Shown: piece after piece, positions 35,177 through 49,599 of the stretch
Layout: the number at the start of each line of letters is the position of its first letter
Numbering within the stretch: position 1 is the stretch's first letter
Assembly: GCA_030832185.1 (NCBI GenBank)
Contig: JAURJQ010000010.1
Coordinates: 102,032-166,031 of the forward strand
DNA: 64,000 nucleotides
From: Chitinophagales bacterium
GTDB lineage: Bacteria; Bacteroidota; Bacteroidia; Chitinophagales; JADJOU01
Reading direction: 5' to 3'
The notes under the pieces: generated by a model
What the model was told of the DNA's origin: nothing
Seen by the model: the letters and a program-made list of their open reading frames with translations, nothing else
The model's database searches: none
Program-made: the position numbers and the translations under genes

Positions 35177-36403
35177 TCAGATGTCACTTAAAAAAATTAG
35201 ATCTAAATCTATATGTTTCTCGCCTAGTATCTGACTAAAATGCTGATTGCACACATTCCCTGTAAATAAATAGGCTCCATGGCGCACACCTTTGGAAAAT
35301 TGAATAAGGGTTTTAATTCCTCCTGATTTCTGAAGTTGAATCATGGTATTAGCCAGTATATTACTCAGTGCGATAGATGCCGTGCGAGATACTCTAGATG
35401 GTATATTCGGCACACAATAATGAATGACGTCATGTTTGATAAATGTAGGTTGGTCATGATTCGTCATTTCACTAGTTTCAAAGCAGCCTCCCTGGTCTAT
35501 CGATACGTCTATAATGACGGAGTTTGGCTTCATATTCATGACCATGGATTCAGATATGAGTATCGGCGTGCGGCTTGTCTTTGAATGTAGAGCCCCAATG
35601 ACCACATCCGCATTTTTTAGCTCCTGAGAAAGTGTAATAGACGAAAGGACAGAGGTGTATACTCTGCTTCCTAGATTATTTTGAATGCGCTTTAATTTAT
35701 ATAAAGAATTGTCGAAAATCTTGACGGTCGCTCCCAGACCAATCGCCGCTCTAGCTGCAGTCTCGCCTACAATTCCAGAACCTAAAATGACGACATTCGT
35801 AGGTGGTACACCTGTAATACCTCCGAGTAGGATACCCGCTCCTCCTTTGACTGTGCTGAGGTATTCTGAAGCTATCAATACTACTGCTCCACCTGCGATC
35901 TCACTCATAGCGCGCACTATAGGATAGGCCCCCCATTCGTCTTGCAAATATTCAAAAGCAACGGCAGTGATTTTCTTTTCCATCATTTTCTCAATCACCT
36001 TTTTTTTCATACTAGGGAGGTGGAGGGGAGAGAATATAGTCTGGTGTGTTTTCATATGTTCTACCTCATCCATAGTAGGCGGGGTGACCTTAAGAATTAC
36101 GTCTGCTTCGAATATTTTATTTTGTTCGTAGATGATTTCTGCACCAGCCTCCGAATAATCCCTATCTGTAAAATGACTGAAATTTCCAGCACCGGTCTCT
36201 ATTTGAACATTAATCCCTTGATGAACAAGCATATGCACCGATTCTGGTGTTAATGCTACTCTATGTTCTTGAAAAGTTTTTTCGCGGGGAATACCTATGC
36301 TGAAACTATCTTTTTTGCTTACTACCTTAGCAGGAATCTCCTGTGTAGAGTATTCATACTTCGTTACATTTTGTGATAAATCAGTGACTTGACTCAAGGC
36401 CAT
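35177..36403 (-). CDS. ald: alanine dehydrogenase
   Basis: NAD-dependent oxidative deamination of L-alanine to pyruvate and ammonia. The 408-residue protein contains the N-terminal substrate domain (IGIPREKTFQEHRVALTPESV, with the conserved Arg and Lys) and a Rossmann domain with ILGSGIVGETAARAAIGLGATVKIFD. The active-site region is DVSIDQGGCFETS and HYCVPNIPSRVSRTAS. The N-terminus has ~30 extra residues before the conserved start, as in several Bacteroidota homologues. It has a good promoter upstream and stands alone. Confidence 0.94.
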   Translation of the reverse strand: MALSQVTDLSQNVTKYEYSTQEIPAKVVSKKDSFSIGIPREKTFQEHRVALTPESVHMLVHQGINVQIETGAGNFSHFTDRDYSEAGAEIIYEQNKIFEADVILKVTPPTMDEVEHMKTHQTIFSPLHLPSMKKKVIEKMMEKKITAVAFEYLQDEWGAYPIVRAMSEIAGGAVVLIASEYLSTVKGGAGILLGGITGVPPTNVVILGSGIVGETAARAAIGLGATVKIFDNSLYKLKRIQNNLGSRVYTSVLSSITLSQELKNADVVIGALHSKTSRTPILISESMVMNMKPNSVIIDVSIDQGGCFETSEMTNHDQPTFIKHDVIHYCVPNIPSRVSRTASIALSNILANTMIQLQKSGGIKTLIQFSKGVRHGAYLFTGNVCNQHFSQILGEKHIDLDLIFLSDI

Positions 36404-36427
36404 ATAGGTAAAATACTTAGTGCATTA

Positions 36428-36458
36428 CAAATTTAGTTCATTTTAGATAAATGACAAA
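36428..36458 (-). promoter_or_regulatory. candidate promoter for ald
   Basis: On the minus strand TTTG (36458-36455), a 19-bp spacer and TAAATTTG (36435-36428) match both Bacteroidota promoter elements at normal spacing. The leader would be ~20 nt. Confidence 0.5.
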
Positions 36459-36533
36459 CTTTGAAAATGGGGACTAAATAAGTCATTCATATTATATCCT
36501 ATAAAATATGCAGACTTGAATTAATTTTTAAGC

Positions 36534-36561
36534 TTGTAATTAAATTTTATTTTTATATTTG
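36534..36561 (+). promoter_or_regulatory. candidate promoter for tRNA-Asp
   Basis: TTG at 36534-36536, 17 bp, then TATATTTG at 36554-36561, followed by GCACTCG, a context typical of strong Bacteroidota tRNA/rRNA promoters. The tRNA begins about 97 bp downstream. Confidence 0.45.
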
Positions 36562-36658
36562 CACTCGCTTTTGAAAGAAAGCAATCGTCATTTATATCTA
36601 ATTTATTTATTATTTTAGATTGCTCTCAGAGATAATATCAATGAAGCTGTGAATAAAT

Positions 36659-36732
36659 GGTCTGGTAGTTCAGTTGGTTAGAATGCCGCCCTGTCACGGC
36701 GGAGGTCGCGAGTTCGAGTCTCGTCCAGACCG
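36659..36732 (+). tRNA. tRNA-Asp (GTC)
   Basis: A complete cloverleaf of 74 nt. The acceptor stem GGTCTGG pairs with CCAGACC. The anticodon arm is CCGCC-CTGTCAC-GGCGG with anticodon GTC, and the T-arm contains GTTCGAG. The discriminator base is G, and CCA is not encoded directly after it. A terminator follows 12 bp later, so it is a single-tRNA transcription unit. Confidence 0.97.
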
Positions 36733-40447: not shown

Positions 40448-40996
40448 CTAGAAATTTATACCCATAAAAAAGGGTAAACTTAAATTTCTATCCTCGGATT
40501 TCGATGAATAAAAATACTTAGATTCTAATCCTAAAAATATATGGTTTTTAAACGTATGCCTATAGCCTAGTCCGAAACTGATATCCGCCGTAGAGAAAGT
40601 ATGTGTTATTTGTTCCCCTTTAGCAGCAACTATATTATTTCTAAAAAAAGATGGGCCGAAAGTAAAGCTAGCAAACAAATGATTACTTAACTTCATTTCA
40701 ATAGCAGCATGTATAGGGATAACTGTCATATTTATTGCAGAATTGTCATTAGCTGTAAAATCATTTAATCTGTAGAGCTGAACGTGGCCAGATTCTATGC
40801 CAAATGATAGTCGATATCTTGTATTCCACATAAGTTTGGAATAGATAGAATGATTTAAGGGCTCCAGATTTTCATGGAATATCACCAAATTATTAAAATA
40901 ATAATTGGGTCCGGCACCTAGCTGAAAACTAAAATCCTTCTGAGCTAACAGCAGCTTTGATATGGCAATAAAAAATAAGATGACAATCTTTTTCAC
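40448..40996 (-). CDS. outer-membrane beta-barrel protein, unknown function
   Basis: A 182-residue protein with signal peptide MKKIVILFFIAISKLLLAQK. The rest is a set of amphipathic strands (YRLSFGIESGHVQLY, LFASFTFGPSFF, ADISFGLGYRHTF) ending in FFMGINF, with the C-terminal Phe typical of barrel insertion signals. It starts directly after the GDPD lipoprotein stop (zero spacing) and is the last gene of a three-gene set. Confidence 0.72.
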   Translation of the reverse strand: MKKIVILFFIAISKLLLAQKDFSFQLGAGPNYYFNNLVIFHENLEPLNHSIYSKLMWNTRYRLSFGIESGHVQLYRLNDFTANDNSAINMTVIPIHAAIEMKLSNHLFASFTFGPSFFRNNIVAAKGEQITHTFSTADISFGLGYRHTFKNHIFLGLESKYFYSSKSEDRNLSLPFFMGINF

Positions 40997-42250
40997 CTAT
41001 TCTTGGGAGTAAAATTCATAAGCTAAAATAGAAGGATAATTGGTCAATATCCCATCGAAATTCCCTACTTGTATATATTTTTTCATGACAGTAGAGAGAT
41101 CTACCGTCCAGCAAACTACTTTCATATTGAGTGCATGAGCTTCGGCTACCTCATTATCTAGTGTGCCTAATGTCCAACGCGGAGCATAGACTGCCGAGTT
41201 TAATTCCTTAGATCTTGCGAAGCTAATTTCGCATAGATTTGGTCTATCTTTATTGTTCGGTACTTTAGAGAATTCGGTGGCTATCTCCTCGGTAGGAAGT
41301 CCATTGAGAATCAGGATAGAATTGTTACGTCCTCGAGCTTTGAGAAGTGCTTTATACATTACAGGAAGTGTATAGCTGAAAAATCGCTCGTTTCCGCCTT
41401 TATTATCTAGCCATACAAATCTTATATCTGTAGAATCTATAATCGTATTGAGCATTTCCTCTAAGGTAGGTATAGTCTGCCCGTCTACTAATCGCACATA
41501 ACGCCTTAGAAATTCAAAATTAAAATCTTCAATATTGCCGACTACGGGTCCTTTTTGAGTCAATCTAATATTGATATCATCATCGTGATACACTACAGGG
41601 ATATTATCTTTCGTGAGTTTAATATCAATTTCTACTCCACTAGCACCCATCTCTGAGGCTCTCTTTACTAATTCAATTGAGTTTTCTGCAAAGGGGATAT
41701 TATCAGAATTTCGACCGCCAGCCCTATGGGCTATAATGGAGAATTTTATATTGTTCAACACTTTATTGGAAAAAAAACGTTCAAAGCTTAATTCTACTTC
41801 CGCAGTTTTACCGTCTATAGAGATATTTTGTCCTATTAGCTTGGAAACAGTAAATTTTTTAGAAATAATATCGTCCGCACCGTTTTGTTTGGTAATAGTT
41901 AGGTAAAGTTTCCCTTCTTCATTATTCATTGGGGAGCGCCAATAACCTGCCATTTTGATACTAGAGTCACTTAAATTAACGCCTACATCCATTACAGCAT
42001 AGTTGCCATTGCGATTGGAAAATAAGGTGAGCTTGTTCTGATTCCATTTCATGACAAATCTATATCCAAGTCCAGCGGTCGAACTTTCACTGCTATAAAT
42101 ACCTATGAGGTAAGGTCTCATGTCGCTAGGAAGTGGAATTGTACCTGCCAGATAGGTTTTGTCATAATCTGGATTAAAATTATAATCATTTTTTTCGCAT
42201 CCTAACACTAGTAATAGAAAAATGGAGTAAACTAAACTCTTTATCCGCAT
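40997..42250 (-). CDS. glycerophosphodiester phosphodiesterase-domain lipoprotein
   Basis: A 417-residue predicted lipoprotein (lipobox LLLVLGCEK, Cys18). The N-terminal part (~25-165) is an all-beta domain of unknown role. The C-terminal GDPD TIM-barrel (~172-410) shows IIAHRAGGRNSDNIPFAENS (catalytic His and Glu), GVEIDIKLTKD (metal Glu/Asp) and VVYHDDD (second catalytic His). This family splits glycerophosphodiesters to glycerol-3-phosphate and an alcohol. An outer-membrane location fits scavenging of phospholipid head groups. It is coupled to the flanking barrel genes by gaps of 0 and 2 bp. Confidence 0.87.
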   Translation of the reverse strand: MRIKSLVYSIFLLLVLGCEKNDYNFNPDYDKTYLAGTIPLPSDMRPYLIGIYSSESSTAGLGYRFVMKWNQNKLTLFSNRNGNYAVMDVGVNLSDSSIKMAGYWRSPMNNEEGKLYLTITKQNGADDIISKKFTVSKLIGQNISIDGKTAEVELSFERFFSNKVLNNIKFSIIAHRAGGRNSDNIPFAENSIELVKRASEMGASGVEIDIKLTKDNIPVVYHDDDINIRLTQKGPVVGNIEDFNFEFLRRYVRLVDGQTIPTLEEMLNTIIDSTDIRFVWLDNKGGNERFFSYTLPVMYKALLKARGRNNSILILNGLPTEEIATEFSKVPNNKDRPNLCEISFARSKELNSAVYAPRWTLGTLDNEVAEAHALNMKVVCWTVDLSTVMKKYIQVGNFDGILTNYPSILAYEFYSQE

Positions 42251-43076: not shown

Positions 43077-43157
43077 GGCCTAGTGGAGAAACGGTAGACT
43101 CGCCATCTTGAGGGGGTGGTGCCGCAAGGCGTGGTGGTTCAAATCCACTCTAGGTCA
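43077..43157 (+). tRNA. tRNA-Leu (GAG)
   Basis: An 81-nt type II tRNA with a long variable arm (TGCC-GCAA-GGCG). The acceptor GGCCTAG pairs with CTAGGTC (one G-U). The anticodon arm is CCATC-TTGAGGG-GGTGG with anticodon GAG, and the T-arm is GTGG-TTCAAAT-CCAC. The discriminator is A. CCA is not encoded. Confidence 0.96.
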
Positions 43158-43160
43158 CAC

Positions 43161-43197
43161 ATACTAGCAACTAAATTATGGTTGCTAGTATTTTTTC
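43161..43197 (+). terminator. terminator after tRNA-Leu
   Basis: A stem ATACTAGCAAC / GTTGCTAGTAT (11 bp, 9-nt loop) followed by TTTTTT, starting 3 bp after the tRNA. Confidence 0.9.
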
Positions 43198-43296: not shown

Positions 43297-44901
43297 TTAG
43301 TTTTGCTCCACCTTGAGCATTCCCTTGATTATATTTTTAGGTTCTAAGATAATTTCATACAGATAGACTCCAGTCGCTAGTCCTTCTGCATTCCAATCAT
43401 TCTGGTAAGCATTCGAGCTACGGTGGACTATTTTGCCATCTAGGCTCATGATTTGCAGCTGCAACAGAGGAAAGTCTTCTAACATAGAGGTAGGGAGAAC
43501 CCAATAGTCGTTTTGTCCGTCATTATTTGGTGTCAGAATAGTTTGAATGTTTTCACCTTTAAACTTCTCGTTTAGCTTTATGATATAACGTGTGGTGTCT
43601 AGTTTCTGAATCCCGAGTGTATTGTAATCTGCCTTAACTATATAGAGTAAAGTATCGGTTGCATTTTTGATTTTGGAGGTATAATCGTAGAGTCCTTTCC
43701 CTATATCTAAATAGCTTCCTCTCTGAGTTTTTATACTATGCACTACAGCCACTTCGTCTCCTATTTCTAGTTTTTTACCTAGTGTCAGGGAGGAGCGATT
43801 ATTCATAGCTAGCTGTGTATCATTTTGGTGATATTGGACTAATACTTCATTGTAAAATGTATCATAGCTCAGCACAAATGTAGGCTTATTCAGAATAACA
43901 GCAATAGTGCGAATGGTATCGATACCAATATGGAAATTAGAGGCCTTATAGGAATAGCCTTCATTCGTGATATTAGTAAGAGTTCCATATTTAGGCTCAG
44001 AATGATGTAGCGATATATCAAAGTCTGGGTTTTTCATCATATCATTGTCTGCATCGTAAAGAACAGAAGTTGATCTAGTTTCTTTAACTTGTTTTTTATC
44101 AGATTTGGAATAGAAAAACTGAAATTTATCTGGTATTAATCCAGCTAGGGTATATACGGAGTAGGCATTAAGATCGATTTCATCTTTTGTAGTAATGGAT
44201 CCAAGATTGATTCCAGAGCCCACGCCAAAAACAGACATGGCATCTATATTGGAAGAAATAATTTCCCATTCATTACCATTCCATCCTACTATGGTCAGGT
44301 TTTTCAAACCGCCATTAGTCAGCCTCTTTATATCACTCTGACTATTCCAGCTGAGTGTCAGTCTTGTGAGTATATTGCCATTGACATCCCAGTATTCTTT
44401 GTTACTTACCTGGTAAAGCAGGGGTTGTTTATTTTTGGTAGGAAATGGTCCGTCAATTGGGAGAACCTGGCTTACTGTACCTACGAAGGGACTCGTAATG
44501 GCTAGATTAGGACTCACAGAGTAATATGCCGCTTCGGCCGGACTAGTTAGCGATGCTTTTTCTACGGCTGCAGGTTTGAATTGATTATTGTCTCCAATAG
44601 GAAATATAAATTTTTGAGATTGAAAACTACGTACATAGCCATCTACAAATGCTTGATCACTGACTCCAGACCATGATGAGCCGGGCATAAAGCTGATATA
44701 ACTTTTATTCAGTCTGCGTTCAGTCCCTAGTATTCCTTTGTGAGTATTCATGGCAAGGCTTCTAAAGCTATAGTCTTTATATACCTTCATATCGCCTGTA
44801 TTTTCAATGATGGTTCGCCCATAAGATTTTATCTGCGCCTGACTGGTCAGCGTGCAGATAAGAAGGGTAATATTGAAAAATAAAAGCGTCGTATATCTCA
44901 T
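43297..44901 (-). CDS. secreted protein with gliding-associated type B (CHU_C) C-terminal domain
   Basis: A 534-residue protein with signal peptide LLFFNITLLICTLTSQAQ. The N-terminal half has beta-rich repeats often seen in Bacteroidota surface proteins (SFMPGSSWSGVSDQAFVDGY, FIFPIGDNNQFKPAAVE). The last ~85 residues, starting ILTPNNDGQNDYWVLP and ending GVYLYEIILEPKNIIKGMLKVEQN, form the CHU_C domain that directs type IX export. It is last in the DUF1800-DUF1501-tail-like-CHU_C gene set, 11 bp after the previous gene, so the four products are probably made together. Confidence 0.82.
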   Translation of the reverse strand: MRYTTLLFFNITLLICTLTSQAQIKSYGRTIIENTGDMKVYKDYSFRSLAMNTHKGILGTERRLNKSYISFMPGSSWSGVSDQAFVDGYVRSFQSQKFIFPIGDNNQFKPAAVEKASLTSPAEAAYYSVSPNLAITSPFVGTVSQVLPIDGPFPTKNKQPLLYQVSNKEYWDVNGNILTRLTLSWNSQSDIKRLTNGGLKNLTIVGWNGNEWEIISSNIDAMSVFGVGSGINLGSITTKDEIDLNAYSVYTLAGLIPDKFQFFYSKSDKKQVKETRSTSVLYDADNDMMKNPDFDISLHHSEPKYGTLTNITNEGYSYKASNFHIGIDTIRTIAVILNKPTFVLSYDTFYNEVLVQYHQNDTQLAMNNRSSLTLGKKLEIGDEVAVVHSIKTQRGSYLDIGKGLYDYTSKIKNATDTLLYIVKADYNTLGIQKLDTTRYIIKLNEKFKGENIQTILTPNNDGQNDYWVLPTSMLEDFPLLQLQIMSLDGKIVHRSSNAYQNDWNAEGLATGVYLYEIILEPKNIIKGMLKVEQN

Positions 44902-44912
44902 CTGGTTCTAAT

Positions 44913-45716
44913 TTATTCGTGGAGACTCACCCATGATGTTCCATTATAACCTTCGAATCTCCCTAGAATTTTATTATATCGGATCATTCCTTCTTCTGGA
45001 GAATTGGTCGTTTTCGATTCGTCTCCTAGTTTTAGGGCACCATTGATTACAAGTTTTACAGGTGCTGTAGTTGTTCCGATAGCCAAATTTCCACCAGTAA
45101 AAACGTGATGTTTTAAGGTATCCTCTGTATGGTAGTTCATGTGGTTAGGCAAAATTCCGATGGCACCTACTAACTGATTTGCCGGATTAGTTATTTCTAT
45201 CGAGCCACTATTGCTAGAACTCCCTTGTTTCACAAAAACTTGTCCAGTGCCAGTGCCACCACCTACTTTTATATTCCCATTGACATCGATAGACTCAGAA
45301 GGATTATTGACACCTATTCCTATTCTACCATTGCGATATACATTAGGTGTTGCGGCAGTCGCAGGCGATCCATCTGATGCATTGAGCCATACTTTATTGA
45401 TTTCTTGTTCCGACAATACTCTATTCCATTTGGTACCATCGTTATAATAATAACCTGGAAATACTTTGAACGGATCTGACCCAGAAGTGCTTGTATTGTA
45501 TACAATCATGCCGGCTACATGCGCACCAAGGGGAGCAAAGCTATTCGTGGAGAATAATCTAAGCCTCGGCATTAGTAAACCTTTGCGAGTGCCATCGGCA
45601 GTATCTATCTGCACTACAGCACTAGGGTCTAATACATCTCCAGTACCAAAGCGCATTTGAGCCTTGGTCATGGATATACCACTTAATAAGAATAGAGTTA
45701 GGAAAAGCTTCTTCAT
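44913..45716 (-). CDS. secreted tail-fibre-like protein
   Basis: A 267-residue protein with signal peptide MKKLFLTLFLLSGISMTKAQ. The body has the GIGVNNPSESIDVNGNIKVGG and NLAIGTTTAPVKLVINGALKLG pattern, shared with trimeric phage-tail-fibre and adhesin stalk proteins of Bacteroidota. The C-terminus is EEGMIRYNKILGRFEGYNG then TSWVSL. The same motif closes the DUF1501 protein encoded just upstream. Probably an extracellular trimeric stalk; no enzymatic motif. It lies 54 bp after the DUF1501 gene. Confidence 0.72.
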   Translation of the reverse strand: MKKLFLTLFLLSGISMTKAQMRFGTGDVLDPSAVVQIDTADGTRKGLLMPRLRLFSTNSFAPLGAHVAGMIVYNTSTSGSDPFKVFPGYYYNDGTKWNRVLSEQEINKVWLNASDGSPATAATPNVYRNGRIGIGVNNPSESIDVNGNIKVGGGTGTGQVFVKQGSSSNSGSIEITNPANQLVGAIGILPNHMNYHTEDTLKHHVFTGGNLAIGTTTAPVKLVINGALKLGDESKTTNSPEEGMIRYNKILGRFEGYNGTSWVSLHE

Positions 45717-45770
45717 CTTTATTTGATTAATTTATGATCAATTGATTCGTAATTTTATATATTTTCTGTC

Positions 45771-47870
45771 TTAGTTATCTAATATCACCCACTCAAATCC
45801 GTCAAATCCCTCAAAATGCCTATTGACTTGATTGAAGCGCATCGTGCCTTCTAAGAAGGGCGGTGTAGCTGGCTTCTTTGTATAATTTCCTTCATCTTGA
45901 TTGGTTACTCGAATCATACACCCACCACTATTTCTATCTATATTGGTCTGATTGTCCCATTGCTTGTAGAGCACTCCATTTATAGCTCCAGATGTTATCG
46001 GACCAAGGGGATATATAGGAATAAACAATCCTTGAGCTCTTAAATCATTGGGTACACTGAGTGGGGTCAATGTTTTAAACCATAGTTGAGGACTAATAAA
46101 ATTAGCAGAGACTGAATTTTTAAATTTAGTTGCTTCATCTAAAGTATCAGCTAACATTCCTGAATTTTGAAAAAATCGAATATTGACAAATCCATCTTGG
46201 GTTCCAGATATGATTTCTATTGTCCATGTAATTCCCATCACGAAACTTCCATCTTGACCGTCTATTCTACTAAATGATTTGGTTCCGTTCGGAGAACATA
46301 GACATTTTCTGATCTTTACCTGGGCTGTAAACGCTGTTGTATTGGCTCCAGATCCTGATGGGTTATGCTCTATTCCGAAGAAATAACTGTTATTGACGGT
46401 CCCTGCTAGACCATAATATGACCATCCATTAACCTCAAAGATCTTAACACAATTCACGTCATCGTATGGAAATTTATGACAATCTATCAAATGAGTAGTA
46501 AGGCAGTCTGGCGAAGCATTCAAAGTAGTCTTGACCAGGTCCAACTTGGTGGCTGCTTGGGTTCCGATACTCGATGTATCTAATTTCGTTTCTGAAATTA
46601 CGGAGCTATCCGCACCCAGCCAATCTTGCAATAAAGTTGCATAAATTTGTCTATAATCATACTTTCGCTCACTGCTAGGATAGTAATAAGCTGTCGAACT
46701 AGCTTGATTGGCATTGGCTGGTACATTAAGGCTAGGGTGAGCGCCGATAATACCACTTTGCACTCCTTTTCCAATCACAAAAAATGGAGCAATATTCCCA
46801 TGGTCCGTTCCGGTGCTGCCATTTTGTTTTACTTGTCTTCCAAATTCACTGAAGGTAACTGTCATGACCTTGTCATCAAACCCAAGCGACTCAATATCAG
46901 CTTGAAATGCAGCTATCGAATTCGACACATCAGATAGTAGATTGGCGTGACCCCCAGTATGAGCACTACCAATAACTGCCTGTGTATCATGCGTATCAAA
47001 TCCACCTATGGTCACCATAAATATCTTGGTCTTAGAACCTCCGCGAATAAGCCTCGATACGGTTTTTAATTGTTTACCTAGATTAGTATTAGGATAGCTT
47101 ACAGAACTATTGTTTCCAGCATTGAATACTGTCATGATTCTGTTATAATAAGTATCCATACTTTTTTCTACACCTCTTAAAAACTCCTGTATTCTACCAT
47201 AGTCACTGTCATCTGGCAAAAGAATAGCAGGGGCAAGCATACCAAACAAGGTGCCTTGCATGGATGTAGCATTGTATTCGATATTTCTATTATGTGTATG
47301 GTTGAATATAAGACAAGGATTGGAATTGCCAAAGTGCAACGCCACAGGATCTTCCATGAGTCTATTAGGTGAACCAGCCATACCCGGCAATACTTTTTCC
47401 AGATACCTTCCCATGATTCCATCCTCTAAATTTGAAGGGTTATTTCCATCTCTACCCGCAAACATCATATTTTCCGAATCGAAATGCGAATAGTTTGGCT
47501 TCGGATAACCTACTCCATTTATCACAGCTAATTTTCCCGCGTTTAAAAGGTCTGAAAAGGCAAACATAGACGGGTGAATTCCTATATCTGAATTGAGTGG
47601 AATTATAGAATTCGGGCCCGTATTATTTAATTTGATATCGGGTCTTAAAAAGCTATATTGATCGTATTCGTTTAATGGGATGATAGTATTTAATCCATCA
47701 TTGGCTCCTGCCATACGCACAATAACAATGACCCTGTCAGATATAGGGTCGCAGTCAGCAAATGGCGCAGCTGAAGCCCACGCATATGAATTGTTCAAGA
47801 TTAAGGGGCTTGTCAATCCTAATGTGCCAGAAACTTTTAAAAATCCTCTTCTTCCAATTCCCATATTCAA
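45771..47870 (-). CDS. DUF1501 protein with long C-terminal extension
   Basis: A 699-residue exported protein. The N-terminus GIGRRGFLKVSGTLGL is a twin-arginine signal, so it is folded before export. The DUF1501 domain (~35-430) shows VIVRMAGANDGLNTIIPL, FSEFGRQVKQNGSTGTDHG and HPSLNVP, consistent with the sulfatase/phosphatase-like fold proposed for the family; no activity is established. About 250 further residues follow, containing several Cys (CHKFPYDDVNC, KCLCSP) and ending GTMRFNQVNRHFEGFDGFEW. That end resembles the neighbouring tail-like protein. It is partnered with the DUF1800 gene 4 bp upstream. Confidence 0.87.
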   Translation of the reverse strand: MNMGIGRRGFLKVSGTLGLTSPLILNNSYAWASAAPFADCDPISDRVIVIVRMAGANDGLNTIIPLNEYDQYSFLRPDIKLNNTGPNSIIPLNSDIGIHPSMFAFSDLLNAGKLAVINGVGYPKPNYSHFDSENMMFAGRDGNNPSNLEDGIMGRYLEKVLPGMAGSPNRLMEDPVALHFGNSNPCLIFNHTHNRNIEYNATSMQGTLFGMLAPAILLPDDSDYGRIQEFLRGVEKSMDTYYNRIMTVFNAGNNSSVSYPNTNLGKQLKTVSRLIRGGSKTKIFMVTIGGFDTHDTQAVIGSAHTGGHANLLSDVSNSIAAFQADIESLGFDDKVMTVTFSEFGRQVKQNGSTGTDHGNIAPFFVIGKGVQSGIIGAHPSLNVPANANQASSTAYYYPSSERKYDYRQIYATLLQDWLGADSSVISETKLDTSSIGTQAATKLDLVKTTLNASPDCLTTHLIDCHKFPYDDVNCVKIFEVNGWSYYGLAGTVNNSYFFGIEHNPSGSGANTTAFTAQVKIRKCLCSPNGTKSFSRIDGQDGSFVMGITWTIEIISGTQDGFVNIRFFQNSGMLADTLDEATKFKNSVSANFISPQLWFKTLTPLSVPNDLRAQGLFIPIYPLGPITSGAINGVLYKQWDNQTNIDRNSGGCMIRVTNQDEGNYTKKPATPPFLEGTMRFNQVNRHFEGFDGFEWVILDN

Positions 47871-47874
47871 TACT

Positions 47875-49599
47875 TTACATCACTTGGTATTCAGTAGATT
47901 TAGCCATGGCTAAAATTAATCTATTCAAAGCTGTTCTTACTGCATTTTTCTTTGTATTATTTGCGACATCTGCTACCCATGTATTCCATGTGGCAGCCCA
48001 ATTTGCTTTGGAAAGTCCGTTTAATAGTGCATTCTCAAAAAAACCATATCTCAATCCCTGTGGTTTCGAGGGAAAGAGGATTTCCATTAATTCATCAATA
48101 AGTATATCCGTATTAGCAGGATCTGTGAAATAGCCGGAAGTTCGAACAAATTCAGGGCTATCCAATCGAGTGGTAAAACCATTATTTGTATAACCATTGA
48201 GCAAGGTTTGTATCCACCCTGAATTATATCGCTGATTGAGTGTAGCTATTGTTACCCAATTTTTGTCATAATTAGGTTTAGCACTGTAGCCAGGATATCC
48301 ACTCACATCTACTGAATTGAAGAGCTGCATACCTGCTATCCATATTCTGCTGCGTAATGTGTTGAAGTAGTTATGAAAATGAAGAGGATTAGCCATGGGA
48401 TTTACCATGGCTATATTTGTTTCCGCTAGTGGATTTAATAATAAATCAGTCGATGACTTGATTTTGCTTCCTAAGTGCTCGTCACCGATAATACTATCTT
48501 CTTCATCATAAAAATGCCAACTTTTCAATAAAAGTTTGACGGCGGATTCTAGATTATATGTGACTCCATTCTGTGTGCTCATTAGATTCGCAGCCAAAGG
48601 AGTTATGATATCAGTTTCTGCTTCTTGGCTAATATTAGAATTGACGAAAAATCGGTAGAGTCTTCGTGCATAGTTGCGTGCCGTCTCCTGCTGATTAAAT
48701 ATCATGTTTATAAATGCCTGTAACTCGTCATATGCAGTATAGGCTCCTGTCAGCACACTAGAGCCACTGATTGTTTGATTGCCAAAGGCAGCACTAAAAG
48801 TCTTATTGCCAGTATCGTGCTGGGCTATGTTGCAGAGTCCAGTTGGCAGATTAGTCGCAGCATAGGTCCATCCTGCATTGGTAGGATTGGGTGCATGACC
48901 TGCTATATTAGTTGTCAAGCCTTTATCCAGATAGTTCATTCTTACATTTCCCCCATAAGTACCTGTAAATCCTGTGAGTACCCTGGCTGCTTGCTGTACA
49001 TCGTGCTCTGTATAGTTCGTATAGTCACCTTCGGCTACTTGTTCGCCTTTTAGAATGGTAAATAATTCTAAAAACTCCCTGCCATAGTTTTGATTGGGAC
49101 TGTTTTTTACATTGAGATAATTACTCAAAAAATAAATCATACGCTGATTGAGCGTCATCTTATAAGCTAATTCCTTGAGACTTTTATTGGTATATTGAAG
49201 TAGCAGCGCCATATTGTCCCACTGCATGTATACTGAAGTGTAGGTAGTAATATATATGCTATGCAGAAACATTGAGAGTTTCCACTGGATAGTATCACTT
49301 TTATGTGCATTAAATAACCAATAATTTATAAATTCGTAACTAAAGTCATTATTGTATGTAGCATCAAATGTTACCCCCGGATTGTCAAAATCTGGAAAAT
49401 ATTGAGAACCATCTGTGTTTTTAATAGGCTTAGGCATAGCCGGCGCCGTGAAGGTAAACAACTGGTCCAAAGCCTGCGCAGGGGTGAGGCTAGCTAAGGC
49501 ATTAGCTCGAGCCTTGGTAGGTCTATATGTGGTCCTCCGAAGCAAGTGCATTGCACCTGCGAAACCTAATGGTGTAGTTTTTTCACCTATAGAAGCCAT
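47875..49599 (-). CDS. DUF1800 protein
   Basis: A 574-residue protein with the DUF1800 signatures: AMHLLRRTTYRPTKARANAL at the N-terminus, FWLFNAH-like YWLFNAHKSDTIQWKLSMFLHSIYIT near 90, and NYGREFLELFTILKGEQVAEGDYTNYTEHDVQQAARVLTGF near 170. The function is unknown. It is almost always encoded next to DUF1501, as here, with a 4-bp gap. I see no signal peptide in this copy, whereas DUF1501 carries a Tat signal, so export as a pair (hitch-hiking) is one possibility. First gene of the four-gene set. Confidence 0.9.
   Translation of the reverse strand: MASIGEKTTPLGFAGAMHLLRRTTYRPTKARANALASLTPAQALDQLFTFTAPAMPKPIKNTDGSQYFPDFDNPGVTFDATYNNDFSYEFINYWLFNAHKSDTIQWKLSMFLHSIYITTYTSVYMQWDNMALLLQYTNKSLKELAYKMTLNQRMIYFLSNYLNVKNSPNQNYGREFLELFTILKGEQVAEGDYTNYTEHDVQQAARVLTGFTGTYGGNVRMNYLDKGLTTNIAGHAPNPTNAGWTYAATNLPTGLCNIAQHDTGNKTFSAAFGNQTISGSSVLTGAYTAYDELQAFINMIFNQQETARNYARRLYRFFVNSNISQEAETDIITPLAANLMSTQNGVTYNLESAVKLLLKSWHFYDEEDSIIGDEHLGSKIKSSTDLLLNPLAETNIAMVNPMANPLHFHNYFNTLRSRIWIAGMQLFNSVDVSGYPGYSAKPNYDKNWVTIATLNQRYNSGWIQTLLNGYTNNGFTTRLDSPEFVRTSGYFTDPANTDILIDELMEILFPSKPQGLRYGFFENALLNGLSKANWAATWNTWVADVANNTKKNAVRTALNRLILAMAKSTEYQVM

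Follow-up and report, generated by a model that had tools for sequence, protein, structure and literature searches.

Two adjacent genes in the window (the whole 64,000 nt stretch of DNA that was analysed), one encoding a DUF1501 protein and the other a fibre-like secreted protein of 267 aa, end in the same short module, which profile similarity identifies as a probable phage tail-fibre/virion structural module. The fibre module itself is common, but this use of it is uncommon and is conserved in one genus: a building block of phage fibres appears to be reused to form the extreme C-terminus of a cellular exported protein, at the position that a T9SS tail occupies in relatives. The host is a freshwater Bacteroidota bacterium, the genome containing the window is 2.2 Mb in size, and the MAGs nearest to it among named relatives bear the labels Saprospirales and Sphingobacteriales.

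The two genes lie within a set of four on the minus strand, and the short gaps between them (4–10 nt, 54 nt and 11 nt, respectively) fit a single operon, presumably co-transcribed. The first gene (47875–49599) encodes a 574 aa DUF1800 protein (PF08811, E=1.4e-50) with no obvious signal peptide. It is followed by the DUF1501 gene (45771–47870; 699 aa), which starts at a TTG or at an ATG two codons on, and directly downstream is the gene for the 267 aa protein (44913–45716), which has a Sec-type leader. The last gene (43297–44901) encodes a 534 aa protein with a C-terminal T9SS sorting domain (CHU_C/type B) that matches PF13585 at 41.1 bits (cut-off 27). Past it lie a stem-loop (43161–43191) and a tRNA-Leu gene on the plus strand (43077–43158), and downstream on the same strand as the operon a glycerophosphodiester phosphodiesterase-like gene is directly followed by a gene for a small outer-membrane beta-barrel (40448–42250).

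The DUF1501 ORF ends in EGTMRFNQVNRHFEGFDGFEWVILDN and the 267 aa ORF in EGMIRYNKILGRFEGYNGTSWVSLHE. Within these, the C-terminal fibre motifs are GTMRFNQVNRHFEGFDGFEW (45789–45848, minus strand) and GMIRYNKILGRFEGYNGTSW (44931–44990, minus strand), both of which match PHROG virion structural families, and in both proteins the distance from the W of the motif to the stop is 5 residues. The pattern of the module is PxxGxIRFNxxxxxFEGYxGxxW. The last ~25 residues of the two proteins are alike and align locally with a score of 71, while the best scores in the shuffle controls were 67 over 500 whole-protein shuffles and 56 when the last 60 residues were shuffled 20,000 times; no control reached the observed score. 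These comparisons support homology of the two tails and confirm the claim of a preliminary description of this DNA that the same C-terminal pattern ends both proteins. In the best local alignment, no further similarity between the two proteins was found. The motif contains no hydrophobic anchor, and no sequence relatives of it were found in the PDB.

When the 43-residue tail was used in a tblastn search, 184 phage records were recovered, 172 of which cover at least 80 % of the tail. Most are from Synechococcus and Prochlorococcus phages, and the proteins are annotated as virion structural, tail fibre or hypothetical. The best PHROG matches were to phrog_25721 (E=4.1e-9), phrog_2803 (E=5.1e-7) and phrog_6005 (E=6.8e-6; virion structural), each matched by all eight of the eight sequences from the genus. 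A profile of the tails matches 44 of the 199 genomes of the order, and a phylum-wide sample added a few matches, including a protein (genome G398) with four spaced internal copies. A secreted protein at the end of contig C1 of the host genome contains related internal repeats that are weakly matched by the profile (E 0.36).

Outside the genus, 39 of 41 complete ORFs carry the motif internally, the two exceptions having it at the exact C-terminus and 14 residues before it; in the remaining ORFs it lies 104–1,079 residues from the stop (median 287; n=41). These carriers mostly end in coiled-coil, phage-collar-like or T9SS-like tails. In most of the phage records sampled, the motif lies close to the N-terminus or mid-protein. 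Strict C-terminal placement is special to the DUF1501/267 aa pair and is not a property of the module. The preliminary description had proposed a dedicated C-terminal module, to be sought by a profile search for strict C-terminal placement, and had named mostly internal occurrence as the outcome that would speak against it; mostly internal occurrence is what was found.

The 267 aa protein matches PHROG tail fibre and virion structural families (E 6e-6 to 4e-4), and its N-terminal half is a module common to many secreted proteins of the order. A second, degenerate copy of the motif, GMIVYNTSTSGSDPFKVFPGYYYNDGTKW (45426–45512, minus strand; self-alignment score 31), lies inside the protein at aa 69–97, reading GMIVYNTST..FPGYYYNDGTKW. 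A fibre repeat, GRIGIGVNNPSESIDVNGNIKVGG (45258–45329, minus strand), has a pattern common in tail-fibre-like proteins and was weakly matched by phmmer to myelin regulatory factor 7dc3 (E=0.04). The AlphaFold monomer, built from a shallow alignment, is of low confidence (pLDDT 35); its best-scoring part is the last ~30 residues, which form three beta-strands at a pLDDT that is itself only about 50–56. Neither this model nor that of the C-terminal extension of the DUF1501 protein is good enough to reveal a trimer or an interface. Loci with a DUF1501 gene outside the genus seldom have a fibre-like neighbour. Tail-fibre-like secreted proteins were seen near distant DUF1501–DUF1800 pairs at L042 (5961–7481 and 11346–13244), L069 (13956–14750) and L072 (2–1096) only, which is too few for an association; beyond these, fibre-like proteins were not seen to accompany DUF1501 loci outside the genus in any general way.

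The match of the DUF1501 protein to PF07394 (77.2 bits against a curated cut-off of 27, with the best stretch at aa 279–425), together with the adjoining DUF1800 gene, places it in the DUF1501 group. Its core is predicted to adopt an alkaline phosphatase/sulfatase-like fold (Foldseek E down to 4.5e-5), on the basis of a model that is confident in parts only and in which TM-scores are low because much of it is poor. The leader, MGIGRRGFLKVSG, includes RRGFLK and is Tat-like, as published work notes for other members of the DUF1501 group (PMC5122149); the DUF1501–DUF1800 pair and its Tat motif have been described for other bacteria (PMC5122149). TatC and SprA are encoded in the genome. A DUF1800 protein with no evident leader beside a DUF1501 partner with a Tat-like leader suggests that the pair may be co-exported as a folded complex. 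The earlier view that both motif-bearing proteins are exported holds, as judged from the Tat-like leader of one and the Sec-type leader of the other, and most Bacteroidota carriers of the motif likewise start with a Sec-type leader. In the literature collection searched, no paper treated DUF1501 and type IX secretion together.

The PF07394 match ends at residue 425 of 699, and the ~270 residues that come after it are close in number to the ~250 said earlier to have been added, but they consist mostly of a separate ~200 aa domain and not of the motif. This extension domain, at aa ~452–660 (45891–46517, minus strand), belongs to no Pfam family. A Pfam search with it returned nothing credible, PDB matches to Ika8 (E 0.007) and Ika4 (E 0.43) are weak and were taken as chance, and its AlphaFold model, again from a shallow alignment, has a pLDDT mostly below 50. 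The domain is homologous to one that precedes the C-terminal T9SS tail in secreted proteins of 1,967–2,508 aa from other genera, and its profile (A5) matches 28 of the 199 genomes of the order. Four other proteins of the host genome carry it (some as partial matches) upstream of an in-frame T9SS tail, for example on contig C1, where the domain (36175–36726, minus strand) is followed by the tail (35872–36099). It was also seen at C26:147235–147615, C4:12133–12297 and C3:83892–84050 in the host genome (G000), and at L047, L048 and L049. In this order, an unannotated domain of ~200 aa is, then, often found directly before the T9SS tail of large secreted proteins.

Other DUF1501 proteins of the order, and the second DUF1501 copy of the host genome (contig C2), carry a T9SS-like or dockerin-like tail at the C-terminus, as judged by eye, and those examined lack the motif, as the preliminary description had supposed of DUF1501 proteins in general. 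Searches with PF18962, PF13585, TIGR04183 and TIGR04131 gave no match at the C-terminus of either the DUF1501 protein or the 267 aa protein. Hence, in the genus, the extension domain leads into the putative fibre module and not into the sorting tail that one would expect there.

Gene order and both motifs are kept in three further members of the genus (G001, G002 and G003), and the pair, its adjacency and the motifs are thus found in four genomes of the genus, the host included. Both features are also conserved in the MAGs L062 and L063, while no copy of the locus was seen in G004, which is 62 % complete. In G001 the DUF1501 gene (L038:8050–10141) is split by a frameshift into two overlapping ORFs, as it is in L063; the frameshift in G001 either is an artefact of assembly or means that the gene is broken. 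Within the genus, the tails evolve under purifying selection (NG86 dN about 0.03–0.11, dS 0.7–2.1 or saturated).

Fibre modules of the tail-fibre kind normally trimerise, and an oligomerisation or joint-assembly role is on this ground our best guess for the two tails. They would be beta-rich end-pieces of fibres that let the exported DUF1501 protein and its fibre-like neighbour oligomerise, each alone or joined, a reading that we consider about evenly balanced between right and wrong. One short beta-structured fibre module, reused in exported fibre-like proteins of Bacteroidota, would have become the last residues of two adjacent genes, and in the DUF1501 protein a ~200 aa surface-protein domain plus the fibre module would have replaced the usual T9SS tail. 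The DUF1501 protein, with its predicted phosphatase/sulfatase fold, would leave the cytoplasm via Tat, possibly with its leaderless DUF1800 partner, and the 267 aa protein via Sec. The terminal modules would then act as folding or oligomerisation end-pieces, which either keep the two proteins in separate oligomers or bring them together in one. The DUF1501 protein would in this way stay part of a complex in the periplasm or at the surface although it has no T9SS tail of its own, and the 534 aa product of the fourth gene, which has such a tail, may link the complex to the surface. Of the docking, trimerisation or anchoring role first proposed, the part concerning oligomerisation fits a fibre module, but a private docking or sorting tag does not. 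A narrower version, in which the DUF1501 protein is displayed on the small fibre of its neighbour by pairing of the homologous C-termini, in place of T9SS sorting, appears distinctly unlikely. If the tails do assemble together, an exported enzyme could be retained or displayed by simple means, with no need for the standard sorting tag.

That the motif is instead a novel C-terminal signal for export or surface anchoring, standing in for the T9SS tail, might be argued from its strictly C-terminal position in both genes of the genus and from its occupying the place of the T9SS-like tail of relatives and of the second DUF1501 copy in the genome. However, the genome has only two clear motif genes and 43 standard T9SS tails above cut-off, the module is mainly internal elsewhere and is present in the virion proteins of cyanophages, it is not matched by the T9SS families, and it has no anchor. 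We consider this explanation very improbable; the motif was rejected as a T9SS sorting tail, and the earlier suggestion of a T9SS-linked sorting signal falls with it. A recent origin of one tail from the other, by gene conversion or partial duplication between neighbours, is also extremely improbable. Though the genes adjoin and the tails are homologous, the tails share only ~38 % identity and each has some higher-scoring matches among copies in unrelated proteins than in its neighbour: the DUF1501 tail scores 84 against a protein of genome G147 and 60 against the neighbouring tail, and the 267 aa tail scores 93 against a P-SSM3 phage protein. A direct duplication between neighbours is accordingly disfavoured, and a transplantation of the module from one gene to the other finds no backing. 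As the tails are no closer to each other than to copies elsewhere, a specific pairing also lacks sequence support.

The same comparison sits well with neutral modular inheritance, whereby both genes drew a common fibre module from the repertoire of the genome and share its position without sharing a function. The module is promiscuous and widely distributed, each tail has closer relatives than its neighbour's tail, and the N-terminal half of the 267 aa protein is likewise a common module. The genes are, however, adjacent, on the same strand and separated by short gaps, with their motifs at an equal distance from the stop, and all of this is kept in the four genomes. Moreover, as about 5 % of copies elsewhere are near a C-terminus, finding them there in both of two adjacent genes would be unexpected (0.25 % by a rough estimate). 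We consider neutral inheritance somewhat unlikely, and continue to prefer a role of the tails in oligomerisation or joint assembly.

The locus resembles other DUF1501–DUF1800 pairs (PF07394 and PF08811) in gene order, in the Tat-like leader and in the predicted phosphatase/sulfatase-like core; it differs from other DUF1501 copies in the order, which have T9SS-like or dockerin-like ends, in finishing with a surface-protein domain and a fibre module. With T9SS substrates (PF18962 and PF13585) it shares the extension, which in large T9SS proteins of this order and of the host genome stands ahead of the sorting tail, but the tail of such substrates is present on the product of the fourth gene of the operon and on neither of the motif-bearing proteins. 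The closest likeness of the tails is to the fibre modules of T4-like cyanophages (phrog_25721, phrog_2803 and phrog_6005) and to tail-fibre-like secreted proteins of Bacteroidota, which contain the same GxIRFN...FEGYxGxxW module in exported or virion proteins. In those proteins the module is usually internal or N-terminal, whereas here it forms the last residues of two neighbours, one of them a DUF1501 protein and thus no fibre protein itself.
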